NCBI GenBank assembly: GCA_030765625.1 | Contig: JAVCCF010000131.1 | Span: forward strand, 1 to 34,819 | From: Candidatus Tenebribacter burtonii | Lineage (GTDB): Bacteria > Cloacimonadota > Cloacimonadia > Cloacimonadales > TCS61 | DNA: 34,819 bases | Direction: 5' to 3' | Notes under the pieces: model-generated | Databases searched by the model: none | Told to the model about the DNA's origin: nothing | The model's input: only the letters and a program-made list of their open reading frames with translations | Shown: positions 3 to 28,772 of the stretch, one piece after another | Layout: each line of letters opens with the position of its first letter | Numbering within the stretch: position 1 is the first letter of the stretch | Made by a program: the position numbers and the translations under genes

Positions 3-2306
3 TTCGAACAAAACTGTATTGTAGAAAAATTTACTACTATCGAAAACGGTTGCGTTGCTTTTATTGGAAACACACGTTATGGCTGGTATATGCCGGGCGG
101 AACAAATTCTAGTTCCCAAACAATGGACAGAGAATTCTTTGATGCATTATTTGGAGAAGATATAACACAAATTGGACCAATGAATGCAGATTCTAAAGAA
201 GATAATGCAGCACAGTGTTCAGATGCTAATATCAGATGGGTTTATTATGAACTTACATTATTCGGTGATCCATCTCTGGATGTCTGGACTGCAGTACCTG
301 AAGACATAATAGCTACTTTTGCACCAAGCATTCCAATGGGCACAACATCTATTGATTTTCAAACTGATGCTCCTCTTGCTCGAATTGGTCTTATCCAGAA
401 TGGAGTAGTTATTGGCAATGGCATTACAGGTACGAACGGTAATGGTACTATTGAATTATTCGATCCTATTGTAACACCTGAAACAATCTCGGTATCGATT
501 ATTGCACATAATAAAAATCATTTTGAATCTCAGATAGTAATAGTTTCAAATGAACCTTATGTTATTTACGAATCATATGAAGTAAATGATCCCTCTGGAA
601 ATGGAAATTCACTGCCTGATTTTGGTGAAAGCATAACACTTGATATGTCACTTCAGAATATCGGTAGTGTAACAGCAGAGGATGTTGATGCTGTTCTTTC
701 TGTTGAAGATGATTTTATTAACATTACTTCAGATAACAGTACTTTTGGTGATATGACAGCTCAACAGATTGTAACTGTTTCTGATGCATTCTCTCTGGAT
801 ATTGCAGATGATATACCTGATCAACATAATGTAATATTTACTCTCATAGCTTCCGGTTCGGGACAAAGTGACTGGACATCAAATTTCAATATGACTGTTA
901 ATGCTCCTGAGTTATTCTCTGATACATTTATTGTCAGTGATGTATCCGGTAATAATAATGGAATTATTGATCCTGGAGAAGATGTAAATCTTATAATTTC
1001 TGTAGAAAATATAGGTCATGCAAATTCCCCAACAACTTTTGTTTATTTAACTTGTGATAATAGTAATATTTCTATTGAAACTGGTCTTATTGAAGTTGGC
1101 CAGATTGCAACCCAGAATAATTCAAATGCAATTTTCGAGATATCAGCAGATTCTAATATCCCATTTGGAACAAGTATTGAGTTTGGCTTAACTATAGTTT
1201 CGGGTTCTTATATTTTTATTACTTCTTTCTCAAAATCTGTTGGAATAATCATTGAAGATTTTGAAAGTGGGGATTTTAGTGCATTCCCATGGGAATTTAC
1301 CGGTAATGTTGACTGGACAATATCCAGCGAATCGCACGAAGGTTCATTCGGATCAAAATCCGGTACTATAGATTCTTGGCAAACATCTTCATTAATTATT
1401 GAAGTGGATGTCAATTCTGATGGAGATATCAGTTTTTGGAAAAGAGTTTCTTGCGAAGATGATCCTAATAATGATTACGATTATTTACATTTCCTCATCG
1501 ACGGAGTTGAGCAAGAAAGATGGGATGGAGAAGTAGCTTGGAGCGAAAGCTCTTACCAGATTTCTGCTGGTATTCATACTCTTAAGTGGGAATATTATAA
1601 AGATGGCTATGTGAGTAATGGCAGTGATTGTGGATGGATCGATTACATTACATTCCCAGCACTAAACATAATATCACCTCCAATCATTCATGTTAATCCT
1701 ACAATTGTAGAGAAGGAATTAGGATTAAATCAAATAGGTGAAGAAATCGTTGAGCTTTCAAATATTGGTGGAGAGATATTGAATTATACTATCAGCTTAT
1801 CCAATTTACCTGAGTGGTTAGATATATATCCAATAACAGGTAGTTTAAATTCCGGTGAAATGGATGAAATAACATTAGACTTTGATACTAACGGACTTGA
1901 AACTGGACAATACTCAAGCTCTATGTTGATAGAAAACGGACTTGGTGATCAAACAATTGTGCCTGTTGTCCTTACAGTAACAGCAACAGGAGTTAATGGT
2001 AATTTACCGACTGTTACAGAATTGACCGGTAATTATCCAAATCCTTTTAATCCCATAACAAATATTAAATTCAGTTTGAAAACTGAGTCAAAAGTATCAC
2101 TTATGATATATAATATCCGTGGACAAGAAGTTAAGACTCTTATTAATGACGATATGCAAGCAGGATATCATTCTGTTATTTGGAATGGTACTGATGAATC
2201 TGGTAAGGATGTATCAAGTGGAGTTTATTTTTCCAGATTCGATTCTGAAGAAAGAAATGAACATGGAAGATATACAAGTGTTAAAAAAATAATTCTATTA
2301 AAGTAA
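3..2306 (+). CDS. Gingipain-like (peptidase C25) secreted protein, 5'-truncated at window edge, with MAM-like domain and T9SS/FlgD-like C-terminal tail
   Basis: The frame is open upstream of the listed ATG (FEQNCIVEKFTTIENGCVAFIGNTRYGWYMPGG...), so the start lies outside the window. '...YYELTLFGDPSLDVWTAVP' is typical of the end of a C25 domain. C-terminus GNYPNPFNPITNIKFSL...SGVYFSRF...KKIILLK. Confidence 0.8.
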   Translation, partial: FEQNCIVEKFTTIENGCVAFIGNTRYGWYMPGGTNSSSQTMDREFFDALFGEDITQIGPMNADSKEDNAAQCSDANIRWVYYELTLFGDPSLDVWTAVPEDIIATFAPSIPMGTTSIDFQTDAPLARIGLIQNGVVIGNGITGTNGNGTIELFDPIVTPETISVSIIAHNKNHFESQIVIVSNEPYVIYESYEVNDPSGNGNSLPDFGESITLDMSLQNIGSVTAEDVDAVLSVEDDFINITSDNSTFGDMTAQQIVTVSDAFSLDIADDIPDQHNVIFTLIASGSGQSDWTSNFNMTVNAPELFSDTFIVSDVSGNNNGIIDPGEDVNLIISVENIGHANSPTTFVYLTCDNSNISIETGLIEVGQIATQNNSNAIFEISADSNIPFGTSIEFGLTIVSGSYIFITSFSKSVGIIIEDFESGDFSAFPWEFTGNVDWTISSESHEGSFGSKSGTIDSWQTSSLIIEVDVNSDGDISFWKRVSCEDDPNNDYDYLHFLIDGVEQERWDGEVAWSESSYQISAGIHTLKWEYYKDGYVSNGSDCGWIDYITFPALNIISPPIIHVNPTIVEKELGLNQIGEEIVELSNIGGEILNYTISLSNLPEWLDIYPITGSLNSGEMDEITLDFDTNGLETGQYSSSMLIENGLGDQTIVPVVLTVTATGVNGNLPTVTELTGNYPNPFNPITNIKFSLKTESKVSLMIYNIRGQEVKTLINDDMQAGYHSVIWNGTDESGKDVSSGVYFSRFDSEERNEHGRYTSVKKIILLK

Positions 2307-2321
2307 CTCGCGGAGGAGATT

Positions 2322-5300
2322 ATGAAAAATAGTAAAATAACTATTGCCATATCGTTAATTTTGGTTCTATGTGGCACATTATTACTCGCAGAAAGCGGAT
2401 ATAATATAAGCTGTTCACAGCCAACAAATGATGAAATTAACTTAGATTTTAATCTTGTAAATTATAATGTAGAACAAACTACCCAAAACGGTGTAACTTA
2501 TTCAAAAATTAATTTTGAAAACAGCGTATCAACCAATAAAAAAGGATTCGCAAAACTTCCTTTTATTCACGCTGCAATTCAATTATCAAACACAAAAAAT
2601 GTAACAACAGAAATAATTGCGAATAATTATGTTGAATATCAACTTGATCACCCGCTTCTACCTTCTCGTGGAACAATCTACAGGAATCAAGACCCTTCTT
2701 CGATCCCGTATGAAATTGCAGAAGAATCTATTTCTAATGAATTCTATCCGGGAAATATTGCTGAAATGATGGAACCTTTCATCCTCCGCGATGTAAGAGG
2801 TAGTGTTGTTTATGTATATCCTTTCCAATATAATGCACAAACAAATATATTAAGAGTATACGAAAATATAACCGTAAAACTTACAGAGAATAATACAACT
2901 CCGATTAATCCAATCATCAATACAGCAGAACGTATGACAAGAGCGATGAACTCACTTTATAAAACTGCATTTATCAATTACACCGAAAATAGATTTGAGC
3001 ATGAGTTAGATGAATTTGGCTCTATTTTAGTTATTCATACACCTCGTGATGCCGCAGCCATACTTCCATACATCGAATGGAAAAGGGAAAAAGGGTACAC
3101 CGTTTATGTGGAAGAAGTGTCCACGGGAACTAATGTAACATCTCTTGTTAGTTCTCAATTTGCCAGTCATGATGATATCCTTTATGTACAGCTTGTTGGA
3201 GACTGGAGTGATATTTCCGGTACTACAATAAGCGGAACAGCTACTGATCCAACTTTGGGTTGTCTTGTTGGAAATGATGTATATCCTGATCTTATTGTTG
3301 GAAGATTCTCCGCAAGTAATGTTGACCAGGTTACAACACAGGTAGATAAAGCAATAGGTTATGAAAAAACTCCTGAAATTGGTGGTGACTGGTATAGCAA
3401 GGGATTAGGTATCGGTTCTGGACAAGGTGCAGGAACTGGAGATGATGGTGAAGCAGATTATGTTCACATTGATGTAATCAAAGATGACAAACTCCTTCCA
3501 TTTACCTATACTGAAGTAGCAGAAGCATATCAGTATCCTGCCATGACTTTGGTTTCCGGACCTGTTAATGACGGACTTACTATAATTAATTATTGCGGTC
3601 ACGGTTCTGTTACAAGCTGGGCAACTTCAGGTTTTAATAATTCTGCTGTTAACAATCTTTCAAATGGTGATAGGCTTCCATTCATTATTTCAGTTGCTTG
3701 TGTGAATGGAAATTTCCAAAACACGGAATGTTTTGCAGAAGCCTGGTTACATAAATCAGGTGGTGGTGCTGTTGGTATGTTAGCATCAACTATCAACATG
3801 AGTTGGTCTCCTCCGATGAGAGGCCAGGATTATATTAATGATCTTCTTATTGGTGGATATGATTATGTCGCTCATCCTGGGCAAAATGGTATAACTACTG
3901 ATGTTCAGAAAACAACTTATGGAGCAGTTTGTTTTAATGGATCTATTCTTATGGTTCTAGAAGATTATAGTGGAGGTTTGGATGAAATGCAGCATTGGAC
4001 AATATTTGGTGATGCATCTCTTCAAGTAAGAACTGATACCCCTCAAGAGCTTTCACTTTCTAATACTGCTGTTATAATGGGAATAGCTTTTTCTACAACT
4101 ATAACAGCTGGTGGATCTCCTGTAGAAGGTGCTATGGTTTCTTTATCACAAGACGGCGAAGTTTTTTTAGGAATCTCTGATGAAGATGGAAATGTTTTTA
4201 TCACTCATGAACTTGAAGCAGGCATCTGTACTATGGTTGTTACCGGTTTTAATACTGAAACAATTTATGACAATGCTGTCTCGGTAATTCCTCCTGGAGG
4301 TCCTTATGTTATATTCGAAAGTTATGCTATCGATGATACTAATACTGGCAACGGAAATGGATTACTTGAGAATGGAGAGATAGTAGCTCTTGATATGAGT
4401 GTTGAAAATTTAGGAACTGGACAAGCAACAAATGCTATAGTTACTATTTCTTCAACAGATCCCTATATAACTATTATTGATAATACTGAGGATTTTGGTA
4501 ATATTGCAGCAGGTAACATTGGCTCAGTTGCCGGTGCATTTACCATTGAAGCTACTGAAGATATTCCTGATAGTCACATGATTTCTTTTGAATTGGAAGT
4601 AGTCGCAGAAGAAACGTGGATCAGTAGTTTCTCGATAGAAGCATATGCACCAACGTTTCCTCCAGAAAATCTTTTAGCTGAAATCCAGAATTTCAATGAT
4701 GTAATTCTTACTTGGGAACAACCAGGCGGAACCAGGAATCTTACGGGTTACAAAATTTACAAAGATAATCTAATGATAAATGAAATCACTGACCTTACAG
4801 TACTCACTTATAGCGATATTACACTCGCCCCTGGTAATTATGAATATTATATTACCGCTCTATTCAATGCTGGAGAATCTGTTCCATCTAATGTTGAACC
4901 TGTAACAATATTCCTTCCAGCACCTCAAAATCCCATGGCTGTAACCCAATATATAAACATTCTAATAACCTGGGATGAACCTGCAAGTAGAGATTTTTCT
5001 CATTATAAACTTTATCGTAATATGATTATGATCGATGATAATATTATGGAGACTTCCTATTTGGATACTAATGTTCCAAATGGAACATATTGTTACAATG
5101 TAAGAGCAGTATATAGTGGAGGCTATCAATCATCTCTTTCCACAGATGCTGTCATAGAACATGTCCAGACTAATACAGATGATGTTATCCCCGCCACGAC
5201 TTCTCTCATCGGTAACTATCCGAATCCATTCAACCCAACAACTAATATCAAATTTAGCTTAAAAGCTGATTCCAAAGTATCTCTGATTATCTATAATATT

Positions 5301-5483
5301 CGTGGTCAGAAAGTGAAAACACTGATTAATGAAAATATGCAAGTTGGATATTATTCAATAGTTTGGAATGGGCGAGATGATTCTGGTAAGAGTTTATCGA
5401 GTGGAGTTTACTTCAACGATTTCAATGCATCTGGTGAAGGTGGTGATTATACAAGTGTTAAGAAAATGATCTTATTGAAATAA
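2322..5483 (+). CDS. Gingipain-like peptidase C25 with prodomain, FN3-like domains and T9SS-type C-terminal tail
   Basis: Signal peptide; catalytic-type His motif NYCGHGS and Cys motif SVACVNG; GDASLQVRT end of catalytic domain; GNYPNPFNPTTNIKFSL tail. RBS ggagga before ATG. Confidence 0.88.
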   Translation: MKNSKITIAISLILVLCGTLLLAESGYNISCSQPTNDEINLDFNLVNYNVEQTTQNGVTYSKINFENSVSTNKKGFAKLPFIHAAIQLSNTKNVTTEIIANNYVEYQLDHPLLPSRGTIYRNQDPSSIPYEIAEESISNEFYPGNIAEMMEPFILRDVRGSVVYVYPFQYNAQTNILRVYENITVKLTENNTTPINPIINTAERMTRAMNSLYKTAFINYTENRFEHELDEFGSILVIHTPRDAAAILPYIEWKREKGYTVYVEEVSTGTNVTSLVSSQFASHDDILYVQLVGDWSDISGTTISGTATDPTLGCLVGNDVYPDLIVGRFSASNVDQVTTQVDKAIGYEKTPEIGGDWYSKGLGIGSGQGAGTGDDGEADYVHIDVIKDDKLLPFTYTEVAEAYQYPAMTLVSGPVNDGLTIINYCGHGSVTSWATSGFNNSAVNNLSNGDRLPFIISVACVNGNFQNTECFAEAWLHKSGGGAVGMLASTINMSWSPPMRGQDYINDLLIGGYDYVAHPGQNGITTDVQKTTYGAVCFNGSILMVLEDYSGGLDEMQHWTIFGDASLQVRTDTPQELSLSNTAVIMGIAFSTTITAGGSPVEGAMVSLSQDGEVFLGISDEDGNVFITHELEAGICTMVVTGFNTETIYDNAVSVIPPGGPYVIFESYAIDDTNTGNGNGLLENGEIVALDMSVENLGTGQATNAIVTISSTDPYITIIDNTEDFGNIAAGNIGSVAGAFTIEATEDIPDSHMISFELEVVAEETWISSFSIEAYAPTFPPENLLAEIQNFNDVILTWEQPGGTRNLTGYKIYKDNLMINEITDLTVLTYSDITLAPGNYEYYITALFNAGESVPSNVEPVTIFLPAPQNPMAVTQYINILITWDEPASRDFSHYKLYRNMIMIDDNIMETSYLDTNVPNGTYCYNVRAVYSGGYQSSLSTDAVIEHVQTNTDDVIPATTSLIGNYPNPFNPTTNIKFSLKADSKVSLIIYNIRGQKVKTLINENMQVGYYSIVWNGRDDSGKSLSSGVYFNDFNASGEGGDYTSVKKMILLK

Positions 5484-14229: not shown

Positions 14230-14368
14230 ATAACTCCTTTTAATTAAATCTAATAATATTCAAATCCTTTTAAATTGCTCTATAGGTCAAGTTTTTTGCG
14301 TGTTTACTGATTTCATTTGACATATTTCACACTTATCACAAAAAAGCAGAAAAATTGGAAAATTGAAT

Positions 14369-15583
14369 ATGAAAAAAATTGGTTTATTAATACTCGTTCT
14401 TTTATTGCTGTTAGCTTGCACAAAATCTAACGAAGAAATACAAGATGAGATTGATCCATTTATATATAAAATAGGGATACTTGAAGAAGGTGAAACACTT
14501 GCTAATGCACTGATGAAGGAAGGAATAGAGAATGGGATGGTTTACATGCTTGTGAATAAACTGGATTCACTTTACAATCTCAGACATGCTCATCCCAATG
14601 ATAGCTTTATAATAAAATTAGATACTCTTAATATTATTCAAGAACTTAGTTTTAAACCTGATCAGGTTCATAATTACAGAATTATTAGAGATACTTCCGG
14701 AGTTTTCTACTCTCAGATTGACACTCTTAAGTTAGTAAAAGAAATTTTTATGACAGAAGGCGAGATAGAATCTTCTTTATGGCAGGGCATGAGTAATAAT
14801 GGTATCGATCCTGCAACAATTGTAATGTTCACACAAATATTTCAATGGGATATAGATTTTTTTATAGATCCGCAAAAGGGAGATAATTTCCATGTTGTTT
14901 ACGAAAAGAACATGGATTTAGATGGAAATTTCGTGAAATCAGGAAATATCCTTGCTGCTAAATATTCCAGTAAAAATTATGATGAAATTGCTTATCGATA
15001 TACAAACAACAAAAATGAAACCAGATATTATGATAACAAAGGAAAATGTATTCAAAAAGCATTTCTTAAATCACCTCTAAACTATAAAAGAATCTCATCC
15101 TATTTTGGAAGCCGATATCATCCAATAACAAAAAAAACCAGGTTCCATAATGGTGTAGATTATGCAGCTTCTTATGGAACTCCGGTAGAAGCTTCTGCTG
15201 ACGGAACAATTGTTCATAGAGGATGGAAAGGTGGACACCCAACTGTAAATGGAAAAACAGGCGGATATGGCAATACCATAATGATAAGACATGGAAATGG
15301 ATATAAAACGCTTTACGGTCACCTTAGCAGTTATGGAAAATACAGGGTTGGAGATAGAGTTAAACAGCACGATATTATAGGTTATGTTGGATCAACCGGA
15401 TTATCCACAGGTAATCATCTACATTATACTATCTATCACTATAATAAAGCCATAAATCCTTTAGGTTTGAAAAATGTTTCAGGACCTCCAGTACCCAAAA
15501 ATGAGATGGATAATTTCTTATCTTCAATACAAAGTTTACAAAGATATTTTATCGCAGGATCAACAATTGATTCGACCGAATAA
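14369..15583 (+). CDS. M23-family metallopeptidase (lipoprotein)
   Basis: Lipobox LLLACTKS; HNGVDYAASYGTPVEASADG, GHLSSYG, STGLSTGNHLHYTIYH LytM motifs. Confidence 0.9.
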   Translation: MKKIGLLILVLLLLLACTKSNEEIQDEIDPFIYKIGILEEGETLANALMKEGIENGMVYMLVNKLDSLYNLRHAHPNDSFIIKLDTLNIIQELSFKPDQVHNYRIIRDTSGVFYSQIDTLKLVKEIFMTEGEIESSLWQGMSNNGIDPATIVMFTQIFQWDIDFFIDPQKGDNFHVVYEKNMDLDGNFVKSGNILAAKYSSKNYDEIAYRYTNNKNETRYYDNKGKCIQKAFLKSPLNYKRISSYFGSRYHPITKKTRFHNGVDYAASYGTPVEASADGTIVHRGWKGGHPTVNGKTGGYGNTIMIRHGNGYKTLYGHLSSYGKYRVGDRVKQHDIIGYVGSTGLSTGNHLHYTIYHYNKAINPLGLKNVSGPPVPKNEMDNFLSSIQSLQRYFIAGSTIDSTE

Positions 15584-15700: not shown

Positions 15701-18625
15701 ATGAAATTAAACTATGCTAAAACGGGATCGATCCTGTTTTTAATGGTTTTTGGATTCTTACTGGCTCCCATCCCTTCACATGCTGCGATTGATACATCAA
15801 GTTATATTGTAGAAAACCTTAAAGCAGATGACATACCAGATGATGACGGGAGTGGGTTAGTATTAAGCTGGAAACCTTTACCAAAAGAAAAAAGAATCAT
15901 TGAATACCGTATATACCGCGGTGTTTCCCCCGATTCTCTTTTCTACCATGGTAAGGTTGATGTTAATGTAAAAACAGGTGTTGCCGGAGATGTGATGTAT
16001 TATTATGATTCTGGTTATAATCGATTTGTTGATATTCAATCTCCCAGAAAATTGAAAAAAGAGAAACAACAATCGGATAATAGTCCACTTTTTGGACGTT
16101 TACCAAGAGACCTGGAAGTTACCGGACCTCAACTAACCAATTATAGACTTTTAGGTGTTATCATGGAAAAAGATTTTCTATATAAAAATACAAAGATAGA
16201 AATTACTGAAGATGATGAAACTGAAGTATATGCCGGATTAAAATTACGTCATTTCATTTATATCTTGAAAAAATTAAGAGCTGATAAAGAATACTACTAT
16301 ACTGTGATAGCCGTGACAGAATCACGTAAATACATGCCTCATGCTGAACCTGCTATAGGTATTCCAATTGACAACTCACCAGAGAAGATCCAGCAATTAT
16401 ATTCTGTTTATGTTGAAGATCAAACCCGTCTGCAATTTGAATGGATAAGATCTTTATTTACAGATGACCAAAGTAATCACAGTTTATACCTTGTTAAGAA
16501 AATTGATCTTAATAAATTTAATGCTTATGTTGAAGAGCAGCAAAAAGCAGAAATGGATCCTGAATTTGAAACTACTCTTGAAAATCCTGCTCAACTTATA
16601 TATCAAAGGTATTGTGGTTATCCTTATACTCCAGACAATACCGTTGCAGTTGATATTATAGATGGAAAGATCATTAATGATAAACATAACATTGATGTTG
16701 AAGTTGGAAATATTGAAGACTATGTTGCAGTATTTTCACTTCAAGATAGAGCAGGATATGAAACATTCTCAGATCCAAGTCTATTTGATATTGTTAATTC
16801 TGTTGATCTTCCAAAAATTTCTAATGAATGGACAGTTGAAGACAGAAAAAGTGACAAGGGTAATTATAACTCAATTTACTGGGAAAAACCAACTGTTTTC
16901 TTAACAAATTGTACATATCTGAACGATGAAAAAACAAAAATACTTGTTAATTATGATATTTATAAAAACGTAAAATATGATAAAGTTAAAAATGTTTATT
17001 TTACCATTTTTGATAAATCGGGTAATAAGATCACTACTATTAATGAATTTTATCAGGATAGTAAATTAAAGATTACCCTGAAAGAGCCATCTAACAGAAT
17101 TTCTTTCGAGATGAGAGTTGTTGTTAATGGGGATTCCGGTGAAGATCAATTATTTACTCAAGATCTTATCTTTAATCCAGATGTGAAATCTCTGCAGCCG
17201 GGAGTATTATTCCTTAATGGTGAAGAGGTTAATAAATATACTTATTCCGTTTACAAAAATAATTATTCAAACGAAGAATGGCGGCTTTCCAAGAATACAC
17301 TCGGCGCTCAACGTGGCATAGTTGATAATGTAAGTTACAGAAGCATAATTTATAAAGGTGTTAGTAAATTTGATGCAAAGAAAGGATTGTTCATGGTTTC
17401 TCCAACCTTCAATGTAAGAATGGATGATGAGTTAAAAAATAACGTAGGCACTAATCTCTATGCAGAAGAAGTTGCAAAATCCATTGAAAATTACGAAAAA
17501 GAAATTGCTGAGTATATTGCATCGAAAGACACATTAGAAACTGAAGCTGAAATTGCTAATGCTGATGATGCAATCGAGTACTATCAAGCTCAGATTGATC
17601 TTACTGAGAACGATCCAATACTGCAAAAAGCTGCTACATTTAAGAATAATAAAGCAAGAATAAAATTCTTGGAAAAAGTTAAAAATATTGCCAGACGTTC
17701 TTTTAAATATAAGATGGTGAAAACAGATGGAGAAGCACACTTTGCAATTTCTGAAGTTTACACTACAGACAATGTTGCCAAACTACCATTTGATGAATCT
17801 GCAAGAGAAACTTACCCAACATTAGGAAAAGATCATTTTTATCCCATTCCCAACTGGTTCCAGGCAGATAAATTACCGGCTCTTATTGCTACATTTATTT
17901 TTGGATTTATGGTATTATTCATGATAAGGCAAGCAAAGAGTGGTAAGGAACTTTATATAAGACCAATCGCAGGAATTGATGAGATTGATAATGCTATTGG
18001 ACGTGCAACCGAAATGGGAAAACCAATTTTGTTTGTTCCCGGACTATCTGGAATCACTGATGTGGCAACTCTTGCAGGGCTTTCAATATTAGGTCGTGTT
18101 GCCAAAAAAGCTGCTGAATATGACACTAAAATATTAGTTCCAGTGCGTGATTACATTGTACTTCCAATTGCACAGGAAGTTGTAAAAGAAGCACATTATG
18201 AAGCTGGGCGTCCAGATTCTCATGATAAAAACAGTGTTTTCTTTATCACGACCGCTCAATTTGCATTTGTTGCTGGTGTTAATGGCGTCATGATCCGTGA
18301 GAAAACTGCCACTAACTTCTATATGGGAATGTTCTGGGCAGAAGCACTTATTATGACCGAGACAGGTAACACAACCGGAGCAATCCAAATAGCCGGTACA
18401 GATGCTGTTACACAGATCCCGTTCTTTATTACAACCTGTGACTATACACTTATCGGAGAAGAATTATATGCTGCTTCAGCCTATCTTGCACGTGAGCCAC
18501 TGCAACTTGGAACACTGAAAGCATCTGATTATACTAAATTTGTAATATTAGCGTTTGTAGTTATCGGAACCTTGCTTTCAACAGCTCATGCAACATTCCT
18601 GATAAATGCATTTCCAGAGAAATAG
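15701..18625 (+). CDS. DUF6754-like membrane protein with N-terminal exported FN3-like region
   Basis: Signal peptide; FN3-like 'VENLKADDIPDDDGSGLVLSWKPLPKEKRIIEYRIYRG'; TM near 17880; conserved C-terminal domain GIDEIDNAIGRATEMGKPILFVPGLSGITDVATLAGLSILGRVAKKAAEYDTKILVP; C-terminal TM. Confidence 0.65.
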   Translation: MKLNYAKTGSILFLMVFGFLLAPIPSHAAIDTSSYIVENLKADDIPDDDGSGLVLSWKPLPKEKRIIEYRIYRGVSPDSLFYHGKVDVNVKTGVAGDVMYYYDSGYNRFVDIQSPRKLKKEKQQSDNSPLFGRLPRDLEVTGPQLTNYRLLGVIMEKDFLYKNTKIEITEDDETEVYAGLKLRHFIYILKKLRADKEYYYTVIAVTESRKYMPHAEPAIGIPIDNSPEKIQQLYSVYVEDQTRLQFEWIRSLFTDDQSNHSLYLVKKIDLNKFNAYVEEQQKAEMDPEFETTLENPAQLIYQRYCGYPYTPDNTVAVDIIDGKIINDKHNIDVEVGNIEDYVAVFSLQDRAGYETFSDPSLFDIVNSVDLPKISNEWTVEDRKSDKGNYNSIYWEKPTVFLTNCTYLNDEKTKILVNYDIYKNVKYDKVKNVYFTIFDKSGNKITTINEFYQDSKLKITLKEPSNRISFEMRVVVNGDSGEDQLFTQDLIFNPDVKSLQPGVLFLNGEEVNKYTYSVYKNNYSNEEWRLSKNTLGAQRGIVDNVSYRSIIYKGVSKFDAKKGLFMVSPTFNVRMDDELKNNVGTNLYAEEVAKSIENYEKEIAEYIASKDTLETEAEIANADDAIEYYQAQIDLTENDPILQKAATFKNNKARIKFLEKVKNIARRSFKYKMVKTDGEAHFAISEVYTTDNVAKLPFDESARETYPTLGKDHFYPIPNWFQADKLPALIATFIFGFMVLFMIRQAKSGKELYIRPIAGIDEIDNAIGRATEMGKPILFVPGLSGITDVATLAGLSILGRVAKKAAEYDTKILVPVRDYIVLPIAQEVVKEAHYEAGRPDSHDKNSVFFITTAQFAFVAGVNGVMIREKTATNFYMGMFWAEALIMTETGNTTGAIQIAGTDAVTQIPFFITTCDYTLIGEELYAASAYLAREPLQLGTLKASDYTKFVILAFVVIGTLLSTAHATFLINAFPEK

Positions 18626-18633
18626 GAGGATAA

Positions 18634-19257
18634 ATGAAACGACAAATTCCTTTAATAATAATCATAACCCTGGGATTTATGTTTGTAGCACATTCATTTA
18701 TCCCTCACAAAATATCTACTGATTTCTTCGATTGGTACCAGGATTGGGTAAAAGCTGTATCACCATTCGCAGTATCACTTGGTATTATGAGTTTATTTAT
18801 GGTTCATGGAACCAAGATCAAACGAAAAATTTCTAACTGGCAGTACAGCGTTATAACACTTGCCGGTCTTGTATTTACAGCATTTGCAGGATTTATGTGG
18901 GGAACACAATCTGGAACACCATATATGTGGTTATTTGAGAATGTTCAAATGCCTATGAGTGCAACAATGTTTGCATTACTGGCATTTTATATAGCATCCG
19001 CAGCATATAAGGCATTCCGTGCCAGATCTGCAGAAGCTACAGTTCTTCTAATTGCAGCTATTATAGTTATGCTGGGACAAGTACCACTTGGTGCTATGAT
19101 CTCAAAATGGATTCCGGAATCATCTACTTGGATTCTTAATGTTCCCAACCTGGCTGCTAAACGTGCAATTATGATCGGTGTGGGACTTGGAATGACCGCT
19201 ACTTCACTTAAGATATTGCTTGGAATTGAAAGAACTTATCTGGGTGGAGGTGATTAA
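18634..19257 (+). CDS. Uncharacterised polytopic membrane protein (207 aa), DUF6754-operon partner
   Basis: About six hydrophobic segments; 8 bp after the upstream gene; RBS aggagg. Confidence 0.7.
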   Translation: MKRQIPLIIIITLGFMFVAHSFIPHKISTDFFDWYQDWVKAVSPFAVSLGIMSLFMVHGTKIKRKISNWQYSVITLAGLVFTAFAGFMWGTQSGTPYMWLFENVQMPMSATMFALLAFYIASAAYKAFRARSAEATVLLIAAIIVMLGQVPLGAMISKWIPESSTWILNVPNLAAKRAIMIGVGLGMTATSLKILLGIERTYLGGGD

Positions 19258-19258
19258 T

Positions 19259-20218
19259 ATGAATAAGAATAAGAATGTAATCAAACTCTTCGATAGAATG
19301 CAGAATATTGATAGACGCTACATCTACATTGTTGTAGCATTATCTATAATTATTCCACTCCTCATCCCATTTAATTCACGTACCTATGTAACTAAACCTA
19401 CAGAAGATATTTACAAAAAAATAGATTCTTTCGCAGGTGATGAAACTAAAGCAATTTTGATGTCATTTACCCATGATGCATCTACAATGCCGGAATTATT
19501 CCCGATGGAAGTCTCAGTATTAAGACATTGTTTCGAGAGAAACATCAAGGTCTTTACTATTTGCTGGCTACCTGCAGCTGCACCTTTGGTAGATTATGCC
19601 CTTAATACAGCCAAAGAAGATTTCGATGTTCAATCCGGTGTTGACTACTGTAACTTTGGATATAAACCATATGTTCTAAGATTACCAATAATGCTTGGAA
19701 TGGGTGATGATATTTCAAAAGCAGTAGAAACTGATTCTCAAGGTAGAAAAGTTGAGAACCTGGAGATCATGAAAAACATCAAAAATTATGATGATATGAA
19801 CTTGGTGGTTGACTTTGCAGGAAGTAGTAGTGCCATTACGTGGATCACATACGCAAGAGCTAGATTTGGTGCTAATATTGCTGCCGGTGTTACGGCTGTG
19901 ATGGTTGCCGATAACTATCCGTACTTGCAAACAGGGCAACTTATGGGAATATTCAGAGGACTTAAAGGTGCTGCCGAATATGAAAAGCTAGTTGATGTTT
20001 TTGCGGCTTATGAAAGCGAAGATTATCCTAATGGAAGACCATTCAGCAAAGAGATCATTAAGGAAACACGTGTTCCAATTACCGGAGATACAGTTCCTTA
20101 CAAATACAAGAAAGCACGTATTGGTATGAACGCACAATCTATTGCTCATATCATGATGATCTTCTTTATCCTGCTGGGAAATATTGGTTATTTCATTACC
20201 AGGAAAAAGGAATTATAG
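19259..20218 (+). CDS. Uncharacterised protein: TM - alpha/beta domain - TM (319 aa), DUF6754-operon partner
   Basis: ATG at 19259 directly after the upstream stop with RBS ggtggaggtg; N-terminal TM YIYIVVALSIIIPLLIPF; C-terminal TM AHIMMIFFILLGNIGYFI. Confidence 0.7.
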   Translation: MNKNKNVIKLFDRMQNIDRRYIYIVVALSIIIPLLIPFNSRTYVTKPTEDIYKKIDSFAGDETKAILMSFTHDASTMPELFPMEVSVLRHCFERNIKVFTICWLPAAAPLVDYALNTAKEDFDVQSGVDYCNFGYKPYVLRLPIMLGMGDDISKAVETDSQGRKVENLEIMKNIKNYDDMNLVVDFAGSSSAITWITYARARFGANIAAGVTAVMVADNYPYLQTGQLMGIFRGLKGAAEYEKLVDVFAAYESEDYPNGRPFSKEIIKETRVPITGDTVPYKYKKARIGMNAQSIAHIMMIFFILLGNIGYFITRKKEL

Positions 20219-20226
20219 GGGGAAAC

Positions 20227-20826
20227 ATGTTTGAAACAATAAGTAATTTCGTCGCAGCATTCCTAACCTTAAGTATCTTCTCGTTCTTATATAAAGATAA
20301 TCCTTTCTATAAATTCGCAGAAGCTTTACTTGTAGGGGTTTCTATGGGTTATGCAATTCCACTGGTTTATGAAAACGTGTTTATGCCTTATGTTTATACA
20401 CCAATTTTCTTAAACCATAAATTTATAATTATTTTACCTGCATTATTAGGTATGCTATATATGTTCAGATTCAGTAAAAACCTTGGTTGGCTTTCCAGAT
20501 ATCCAATCGTGTTTGGTATGGCTATTATCGGAATGAGCATACCAATGTCCTTGCATTCATCTGTACTTGTACAAATGAGAAGCGCAATGCTACCAATAGA
20601 TAACATCAATACTGCTCTTATTTTTATTGGAACGGTAACTATTCTGTTGTATTTCTTCTTCTCTAAAGCGCATAAAGGTGTTTACGGTAAAGTTACTAAC
20701 GTAGGTATCTGGTTCATGATGATCGGGTTCGGTGCTTCATTTGGATATACCGTGATGGCTCGTGTATCATTACTTATCGGACGTATTCAATTCTTATTGG
20801 GTGACTGGCTGGGATTGATAAAATAA
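20227..20826 (+). CDS. Uncharacterised polytopic membrane protein (199 aa), DUF6754-operon partner
   Basis: KDNPFYKFAEALLVGVSMGYAIPL; about six hydrophobic segments; RBS gggggaa. Confidence 0.7.
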   Translation: MFETISNFVAAFLTLSIFSFLYKDNPFYKFAEALLVGVSMGYAIPLVYENVFMPYVYTPIFLNHKFIIILPALLGMLYMFRFSKNLGWLSRYPIVFGMAIIGMSIPMSLHSSVLVQMRSAMLPIDNINTALIFIGTVTILLYFFFSKAHKGVYGKVTNVGIWFMMIGFGASFGYTVMARVSLLIGRIQFLLGDWLGLIK

Positions 20827-20842
20827 GCGAAAAAATAAAACT

Positions 20843-20871
20843 AAAGCCCCTTAGATCGAGGGGCTTTTTTT
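20843..20871. terminator. Rho-independent terminator, probably bidirectional
   Basis: AAAGCCCC-ttagatcga-GGGGCTTTTTTT. Confidence 0.85.
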
Positions 20872-27056: not shown

Positions 27057-28772
27057 ATGAATGAATTAGTACCCCTTATAGCAAGCCTAGCTACAAGAAA
27101 TAGGAATTATGTTCTTTTCGCTGGCGCAGGCTTATCAAAAGATGCTGGAGTAAAAAGTGGCTGGGATATTTTGATTGAGACATTAATACCTTTGTATATT
27201 GCTGAAAAGGAAATAGATGAATTACCTGCAAATCATTCTAAAGATATCGAAGAATGGTATCTACAACATGAATCTTTTAGTAAGTTAGGATATTCAGAAA
27301 TATTAGAACTTATGCATAGAGGTGAAATAGAAAGACGAGATTATTTAGAAAAATTCTTCAAAGATGAAACACCAGGTGAAGCACATAAACAAATAGCACA
27401 AATGGTTTCTAATGGATTGATTAGATTTATCTTTACTACGAATTTCGATAATCTTATAGAAAAAGCATTAGATGAGATAAACATAGATTATGACGTCATT
27501 TTTTCAGATGATATTCTGGAAAAAACAAAATCTTGGGATAAGGTTAAAACATGTCGCATATATAAATTACATGGTGATTATAAAACTGGTAAAATCCGAA
27601 ATACAGTAAAAGAGTTAGAAACTCTCGATCGAAAGATCTCAGACGATTTTCAGTATATTATTGATAGACATGGTATAGTTGTAATTGGATATGCTGGTAG
27701 AGATAAAGCGATTATGGATCATTTTATGATTCGGAAACCTTATGCTTATCCATTTTATTGGCAGTATCGTACGTTTCCATTAGTTTCTGATGAATACAAA
27801 TTGTTTTATAAACTGAAAGATAAATATGAAAAAGACAATGAAACACCAATTATTTATTTAGAAAATTCGAGTGTTTCAGATTTACTGTCGATAATAAATT
27901 CAGGAATACAAAATTTAGAAATTTCATTAATTTCAACAAAATCAGATTCAAAAAGATACAGAGATTTCATAGTTAATAATGATCAAAAGAAAATCAGAGC
28001 TTTATCACTTGAGTTGATTAAAGATTTTCAAGATTCATACATAGATTGTGATGAAAAAAGAAAGAAAAATTCAAATTATTTGTACCAATTCGATATTATG
28101 AAATCTTTCTTTGAGAATCAATCTAAAACGCTTTCTTATTTGAAGGAATTATTAGAATTTGAGCAATATGTTGAAATTGACTATTTTTGTGAAAAGATAC
28201 ATAATATAATTCTTGATTTCTATCCAGAAAGGTATGGCTTTTACTATAGTTCAATCTTGTATTACTTTTTAATGACTTTCGGTGCTTTATTATTAGAATA
28301 TAATTATATTCAAAAATATATTGAGAAGATATTTTCCTATTATTACAAAAATCGTGATTATGATTTCAAATCTATCAAAATAATTCCAGGATTATCTCTT
28401 ATTGAATCAGGATGGAAAGAGATAGAACAAGAATTATACAAGAAAAACTATTTCAATCCCAAAGTATCAATTATTGAAAAACACTTATTACCAACCGTTG
28501 TAACATCTAAATCATTCATGATATTTGATGCTTACATAACAATAAAATGGTTATTGAGTGATGATCAATCAAGATCTTGGGCAAGTGGAGCTGCCATGTT
28601 TAACGATTATATAATAAAGGCTTTTGTCACATATTTTGAGAAAGATTGTACAGAAGAAAAAATGAAGTATTTAATAGAAAGGATTAATGAGAAATATAAA
28701 GATTACAGATCCAGGACAGTTATAGGATTAAACGAATTGAGTTGTTATCTAGGTGAAAAGTATAAAATATAA
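27057..28772 (+). CDS. SIR2-like domain protein (candidate anti-phage NADase)
   Basis: VLFAGAGLSKDAG, FTTNFDNLIEKAL, YKLHGDY, GIVVIGYAGRD motifs; unannotated ~280-aa C-terminal region. Confidence 0.85.
   Translation: MNELVPLIASLATRNRNYVLFAGAGLSKDAGVKSGWDILIETLIPLYIAEKEIDELPANHSKDIEEWYLQHESFSKLGYSEILELMHRGEIERRDYLEKFFKDETPGEAHKQIAQMVSNGLIRFIFTTNFDNLIEKALDEINIDYDVIFSDDILEKTKSWDKVKTCRIYKLHGDYKTGKIRNTVKELETLDRKISDDFQYIIDRHGIVVIGYAGRDKAIMDHFMIRKPYAYPFYWQYRTFPLVSDEYKLFYKLKDKYEKDNETPIIYLENSSVSDLLSIINSGIQNLEISLISTKSDSKRYRDFIVNNDQKKIRALSLELIKDFQDSYIDCDEKRKKNSNYLYQFDIMKSFFENQSKTLSYLKELLEFEQYVEIDYFCEKIHNIILDFYPERYGFYYSSILYYFLMTFGALLLEYNYIQKYIEKIFSYYYKNRDYDFKSIKIIPGLSLIESGWKEIEQELYKKNYFNPKVSIIEKHLLPTVVTSKSFMIFDAYITIKWLLSDDQSRSWASGAAMFNDYIIKAFVTYFEKDCTEEKMKYLIERINEKYKDYRSRTVIGLNELSCYLGEKYKI

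Follow-up and report, generated by a model that had tools for sequence, protein, structure and literature searches.

The stretch of DNA analysed here (the window: 34,819 nt of contig JAVCCF010000131.1 of Candidatus Tenebribacter burtonii, phylum Cloacimonadota) carries four same-strand genes at 15701-20826 (+), separated by gaps of 8, 1 and 8 bp. A Shine-Dalgarno sequence lies 5′ of all four starts (AAAAGGAGAAGTAT for g1, TAGGAGGATAA for g2, GGTGGAGGTGATTAAT for g3 and ATAGGGGGAAAC for g4). This confirms what an earlier reading of the sequence without database searches (the sequence-only reading) had described, namely four co-directional genes 1-8 bp apart, each with a ribosome binding site and closed together by a strong terminator. 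The features are the following:

14363..15583, + strand: M23 peptidase (Csd3-like; PF01551, E=1.7e-31), the upstream neighbour, outside the component set
15701..18625, + strand: g1, 974 aa, A-type, long form, with a match to DUF6754 (PF20539)
18634..19257, + strand: g2, 207 aa, about six transmembrane segments (TM), conserved C-terminal GIERxYLG
19259..20218, + strand: g3, 319 aa from ATG, with a TM, a Rossmann-like alpha/beta domain and a TM
20227..20826, + strand: g4, 199 aa, polytopic, with the motifs SFLYKDNPFYKFAE and GYTVMARxSLLIGR
20843..20867, + strand: intrinsic terminator at the operon end, a 10-pair stem with 5 GC pairs, then a T-run

The automatic ORF call for g3 starts at TTG 19220, within gene 2. 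Promoter prediction returned 35 candidates against 36.2 in shuffled sequences, which is no excess, and no promoter is claimed. In about 20 Cloacimonadota loci the A-type quartet is preceded by an M23 gene, and the same neighbour search listed none among its matches in loci outside the phylum. Elsewhere in the window, two adjoining genes at 90-5483 encode a protein with a Por secretion tail domain and a C25-family peptidase with a propeptide, respectively, and their products are likely to be type IX secretion substrates. A 571-aa protein encoded at 27057-28772 contains a SIR2-like domain (SIR2_2, E=4e-13) of a type that is frequent in defence systems.

Gene 1 had been recognised as DUF6754-like, and the family search bore this out, since PF20539 is matched at E=2.1e-118 with 394.5 bits (cutoff 27) over domain positions 3-255 of 257. 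The Pfam entry records no function for the family, and a literature search for DUF6754 returned no mention of it. The proposed layout of an exported region, a TM, an alpha/beta domain and a TM also stood (signal peptide, TM at about 724-742, DUF6754 at 717-969 and second TM at about 941-959), whereas its FN3-like part is weakly supported (fn3 E=0.006, under the cutoff). The exported region is fast-evolving and probably a coiled coil, and in many members outside Cloacimonadota, where g1 measures about 245-285 aa, it is missing altogether. Family-averaged hydropathy gave about six TM for g2, six to seven for g4 and two for g3, with the Rossmann-like domain of g3 lying between its two, in agreement with the earlier description of genes 2 and 4 as polytopic proteins of about 200 aa and of gene 3 as TM-alpha/beta-TM; overall, the quartet has about 16 TM. 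From positive-inside residues and hydropathy, the DUF6754 domain of g1 is predicted to be cytosolic and the g3 domain extracytoplasmic, the N-terminus of g3 ahead of its first TM being predicted to lie in the cytosol (N-in).

No Pfam or NCBIfam cutoff was passed by g2, g3 or g4, and diverse orthologues (n=35 for g2, 29 for g4 and 28 for g3) shared no consistent Pfam family. Seven of the 35 g2 members displayed weak similarity to 7TMR-DISM (best 2e-5), and g2 scored 19.7 bits against PF07695, under the gathering cutoff of 29. Comparison of all pairs among the four quartet proteins by hhalign detected no homology (probability below 2). The g4 alignment contains the invariant residues T14, S19, N25, E32, R179 and R186, and invariant polar residues are numerous in DUF6754 and g3. 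AlphaFold2 models were built from shallow alignments, with rows from related loci alone. That of g3 reached a mean pLDDT of 72, with core blocks above 90, and retrieved generic Rossmann-like matches from the PDB (best E 0.06; none at E<=0.001). The DUF6754 domain was modelled poorly (pLDDT 56), and hence no structural search was made from it. A PDB sequence search with the g1 domain, g3 and the c1 and c3 proteins introduced below returned no specific match. The expectation that the quartet proteins had not been assigned to a characterised complex held in Pfam, NCBIfam, PADLOC and the PDB (for the last, with the g1 domain and g3). The quartet genes are under strong purifying selection: the DUF6754 domain has a dN/dS of 0.04-0.05 and g2-g4 have 0.06-0.07, against 0.11-0.15 in the exported part of g1, the least conserved portion of that protein.

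The sequence-only reading had proposed that the neighbourhood of DUF6754 be compared between genomes, and the conservation of its partners indeed holds across many lineages. DUF6754 is present in 122 of 125 sampled Cloacimonadota genomes (69/71 among the high-quality ones), often in 2-3 copies; the window's own genome (G000) has a second quartet, with a short g1, on contig C58. The order g1-g2-g3-g4 is kept in all sufficiently long Cloacimonadota loci. Outside the phylum, a sample of 71 genomes from 71 different families yielded 16 genomes with DUF6754, in 25 copies, and the loci retrieved from distant genomes display the identical order, save for a contig-end break in genome G184. The g3 profile produced 25 matches, which fall in 16/16 outside genomes with DUF6754 and 0/55 without it (Fisher p=3e-16). 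Viral contigs contained no relatives of g1. Omp85 was detected in 15 of the 16 DUF6754-positive outside genomes and 65 of the 71 overall. It is missing in G184, which carries the system and is thus a counterexample to a restriction to Omp85 (diderm) genomes. Because Omp85 is so common overall and G184 does without it, the system is not bound to the usual kind of outer membrane. Chloroflexales are without bamA (PMC7332563).

That the quartet forms a single envelope complex had been suggested from its tight layout. The quartet does travel as a unit, but the unit is larger and includes at least three further components, because three other genes, c10, c3 and c1, adjoin the quartet in several lineages and co-occur with DUF6754. 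The first, c10, encodes a protein of about 100 aa with a core of about 80 aa and without a family. The c3 product (about 570-640 aa; PF13941, E=2e-131) is a long GlmL/MutL-family protein, of the actin-like fold family, with a C-terminal extension. The c1 product, of about 375 aa, combines an RnfC_N-like barrel-sandwich N-terminal part (matched in 3/6 members, best 2e-5) with a middle domain of its own and a KOW-like tail. All three are predicted to be cytosolic or peripheral. The c3-c1 pair adjoins the quartet, on either side, in L110, L119, L122, L125, L114 and L130, and c10 stands before c3 or immediately before g1 (L128, L130, L131); as its iterated search used a small ORF set, the most divergent c10 members are better supported by where they lie than by the search. 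Among the outside genomes, c10 occurs in 15/16 with DUF6754 and 0/55 without it, c1 likewise in 15/16 (with a weak match, 1e-9, in G154) and 0/55, and the MutL family in 14/16 (G154 again weak) and 2/55, the latter two proteins being short and of canonical length. G182 has the quartet and c10 with no c1 or MutL match, and G131 has no MutL match. In Cloacimonadota, c10-c3-c1 form a separate cluster unlinked to the quartet (G000:C100, locus L142; G001, L144), so that in the window's genome the trio lies on a different contig. Taken together, gene order and co-occurrence indicate that g1-g4, c10, c3 and c1 very probably belong to one seven-part system. Beyond these seven genes, the neighbours change from one lineage to another, most of them being housekeeping genes. 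In one Cloacimonadota clade, mutase-like genes (L033:165-2213 and L036:3354-5405; by eye, the large and B12-binding subunits of methylmalonyl-CoA mutase) lie a few kb 5′ of the quartet.

Outside Chloroflexota, c3 has the ASKHA-type phosphate motifs DCGSTTTK, VDIGGATTD and GSGG; in most Chloroflexota members, phosphate-2 is eroded (VDIGSSAAV and similar). Because of this erosion, ATP hydrolysis would not be generally required, arguing for a c3 role that is organising or regulatory more than that of an obligatory ATP-driven motor. The window's genome also encodes a relative of the c3-c1 pair as one polypeptide, a 1056-aa fusion protein (L143:4779-7949; G000:C109) in which a MutL/GlmL domain and an NqrA-like barrel-sandwich are joined to a Zn ribbon and a lipoyl-like part. 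Similar matches exist in many Cloacimonadota.

A further phylum, Chloroflexota, was sampled starting from G184 and contained a divergent DUF6754 in 34 of 121 genomes. Seven of its loci (L165, L168 and L172-L176) have all seven genes contiguous, in the order c10-g1-g2-g3-g4-c3-c1. In most of these Chloroflexota, g3 bears a long N-terminal extension that is predicted to lie in the cytosol and contains 9 to 54 W-L repeat motifs. The repeats of L165, L169-L175, L178 and L179 are of the P/D-x-WL type, often with zinc-ribbon-like CxxC pairs, suggesting that the extension may be a docking platform built as a multivalent motif array. One carrier of the system, Herpetosiphon aurantiacus, is a sequenced cultured type strain, which makes the function testable as one system. 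As Chloroflexus and Herpetosiphon glide, a role in gliding motility was considered; it was dropped, because nearly all Cloacimonadota have the system and its other carriers are highly varied.

A concatenated tree separates the A-type quartets (that of the window, with long g1) from the B-type ones (short g1), and members from outside the phylum fall on either side of the split, the support of the deep nodes ranging from 29 to 99 so that the exact root is uncertain. Judging from this tree, the A/B split is an ancient duplication of the quartet. Three loci (L111, L112 and L114) contain two quartets in tandem, an A-type copy beside a B-type copy, hinting at hetero-complexes of two quartets.

These observations can be assembled into a working model. 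In the membrane, g2 and g4 would constitute the core, and may be the stoichiometric 'channel or scaffold' subunits imagined in the sequence-only reading; the alpha/beta domain of g1 would face the cytosol and the Rossmann-like domain of g3 the outside. Proteins c3, c1 and c10 would dock at the cytosolic face of this complex, where nucleotide binding by c3 would control its assembly or conformation, comparable to the organising of envelope complexes by PilM or FtsA. We infer the docking of the trio on the quartet from gene order, co-occurrence and predicted topology, and the odds lie slightly in favour of a single seven-part system with such docking. Its most likely role, put forward tentatively, is that of a transenvelope assembly or transport device which links a state of the cytosol with a ligand or structure on the extracytoplasmic side. 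Conserved order across many lineages, near-universal presence in one phylum and strong purifying selection point to a probably basic role.

Other explanations account for parts of the same evidence. The four genes could be adjacent by accident or as generic housekeeping neighbours; nothing was found in favour of this, it is refuted by co-occurrence and order across lineages, and its probability is negligible. In the way proposed for GlmL and glutamate mutase, g1-g4 might be a membrane-bound enzyme, with the alpha/beta parts of g1 and g3 as cofactor or substrate domains and c3-c1 as its GlmL-type reactivation or chaperone pair. The match of c3 to the GlmL and Or-4 models (E of about 1e-72, under the equivalog cutoffs), the fused Zn-ribbon-MutL-barrel relative and the many invariant polar residues of DUF6754 and g3 would fit such an enzyme; on the other hand, family searches assigned neither a B12-binding nor any other cofactor family to g1-g4, and no mutase gene recurs beside the seven genes in distant loci, which leaves this explanation improbable.

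About as doubtful is a transporter in which g2 and g4 provide a path for ions, solutes or lipids, with g3 as the extracytoplasmic binding domain and g1 as a cytosolic gate, under regulation by c3-c1-c10. The number of TM, the alpha/beta domains at both membrane sides and the extreme conservation speak for it, but the proteins have no transporter-family similarity and few conserved charges within their TM segments, and their neighbours differ greatly, without a substrate-specific pathway. Signalling, with the g3 domain and the exported region of g1 as sensors of envelope state or peptidoglycan that report to cytosolic c3, would agree with the low conservation of that exported region, the weak 7TMR-DISM similarity of some g2 members and the M23 peptidase 5′ of the quartet in Cloacimonadota. 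The exported part is nevertheless missing in many outside members, and no output domain such as a kinase or GGDEF was found, so that signalling appears somewhat less probable still.

The seven-part system resembles several known ones in part. Of its proteins, c3 alone belongs to a named family: g1 is a DUF, the match of c1 to the barrel-sandwich is weak, and the other four stay below every family cutoff; none of the seven matched the PADLOC defence models. Protein g1 is a strong DUF6754 member with the full domain, distinguished here by a fixed set of six partners. With the GlmL/MutL proteins (PF13941; NF040745, NF040744), accessory to B12 mutases, c3 shares the full domain of the family, and thus membership of the MutL superfamily, plus the phosphate motifs outside Chloroflexota. 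Unlike GlmL, it is longer, has a C-terminal extension and is linked to a membrane quartet in place of a mutase, no B12-dependent mutase being seen near c3 by inspection of L142, L144 and the distant loci. Its scores (from L119 and L130) lie under the equivalog cutoffs, at 245 against 475 bits for GlmL, 240 against 600 for Or-4 and 172-189 against 204 for glmL_fam, and a literature search on GlmL membrane complexes found nothing relevant. The N-terminal part of c1 resembles the barrel-sandwich hybrid of RnfC and NqrA (PF13375, PF05896), but no Rnf or Nqr subunits stand beside c1, which has its own middle domain and KOW-like tail. With PilM and FtsA, the shared trait is an actin-fold protein of the cytosol whose gene keeps company with those of bitopic and polytopic membrane proteins, a works-like analogy alone, as the components include no PilN/O/P, GspL or FtsZ match and Pfam names MutL for c3 instead of PilM or FtsA. 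By elimination, the system fits none of the known kinds compared. It probably represents an undescribed class of inner-membrane machine, core to the sampled Cloacimonadota, widespread elsewhere and anciently duplicated (A/B). In such a machine, the membrane complex of four proteins, bearing alpha/beta domains on either face, would be acted upon by a GlmL-type actin-fold protein together with its barrel-sandwich partner.
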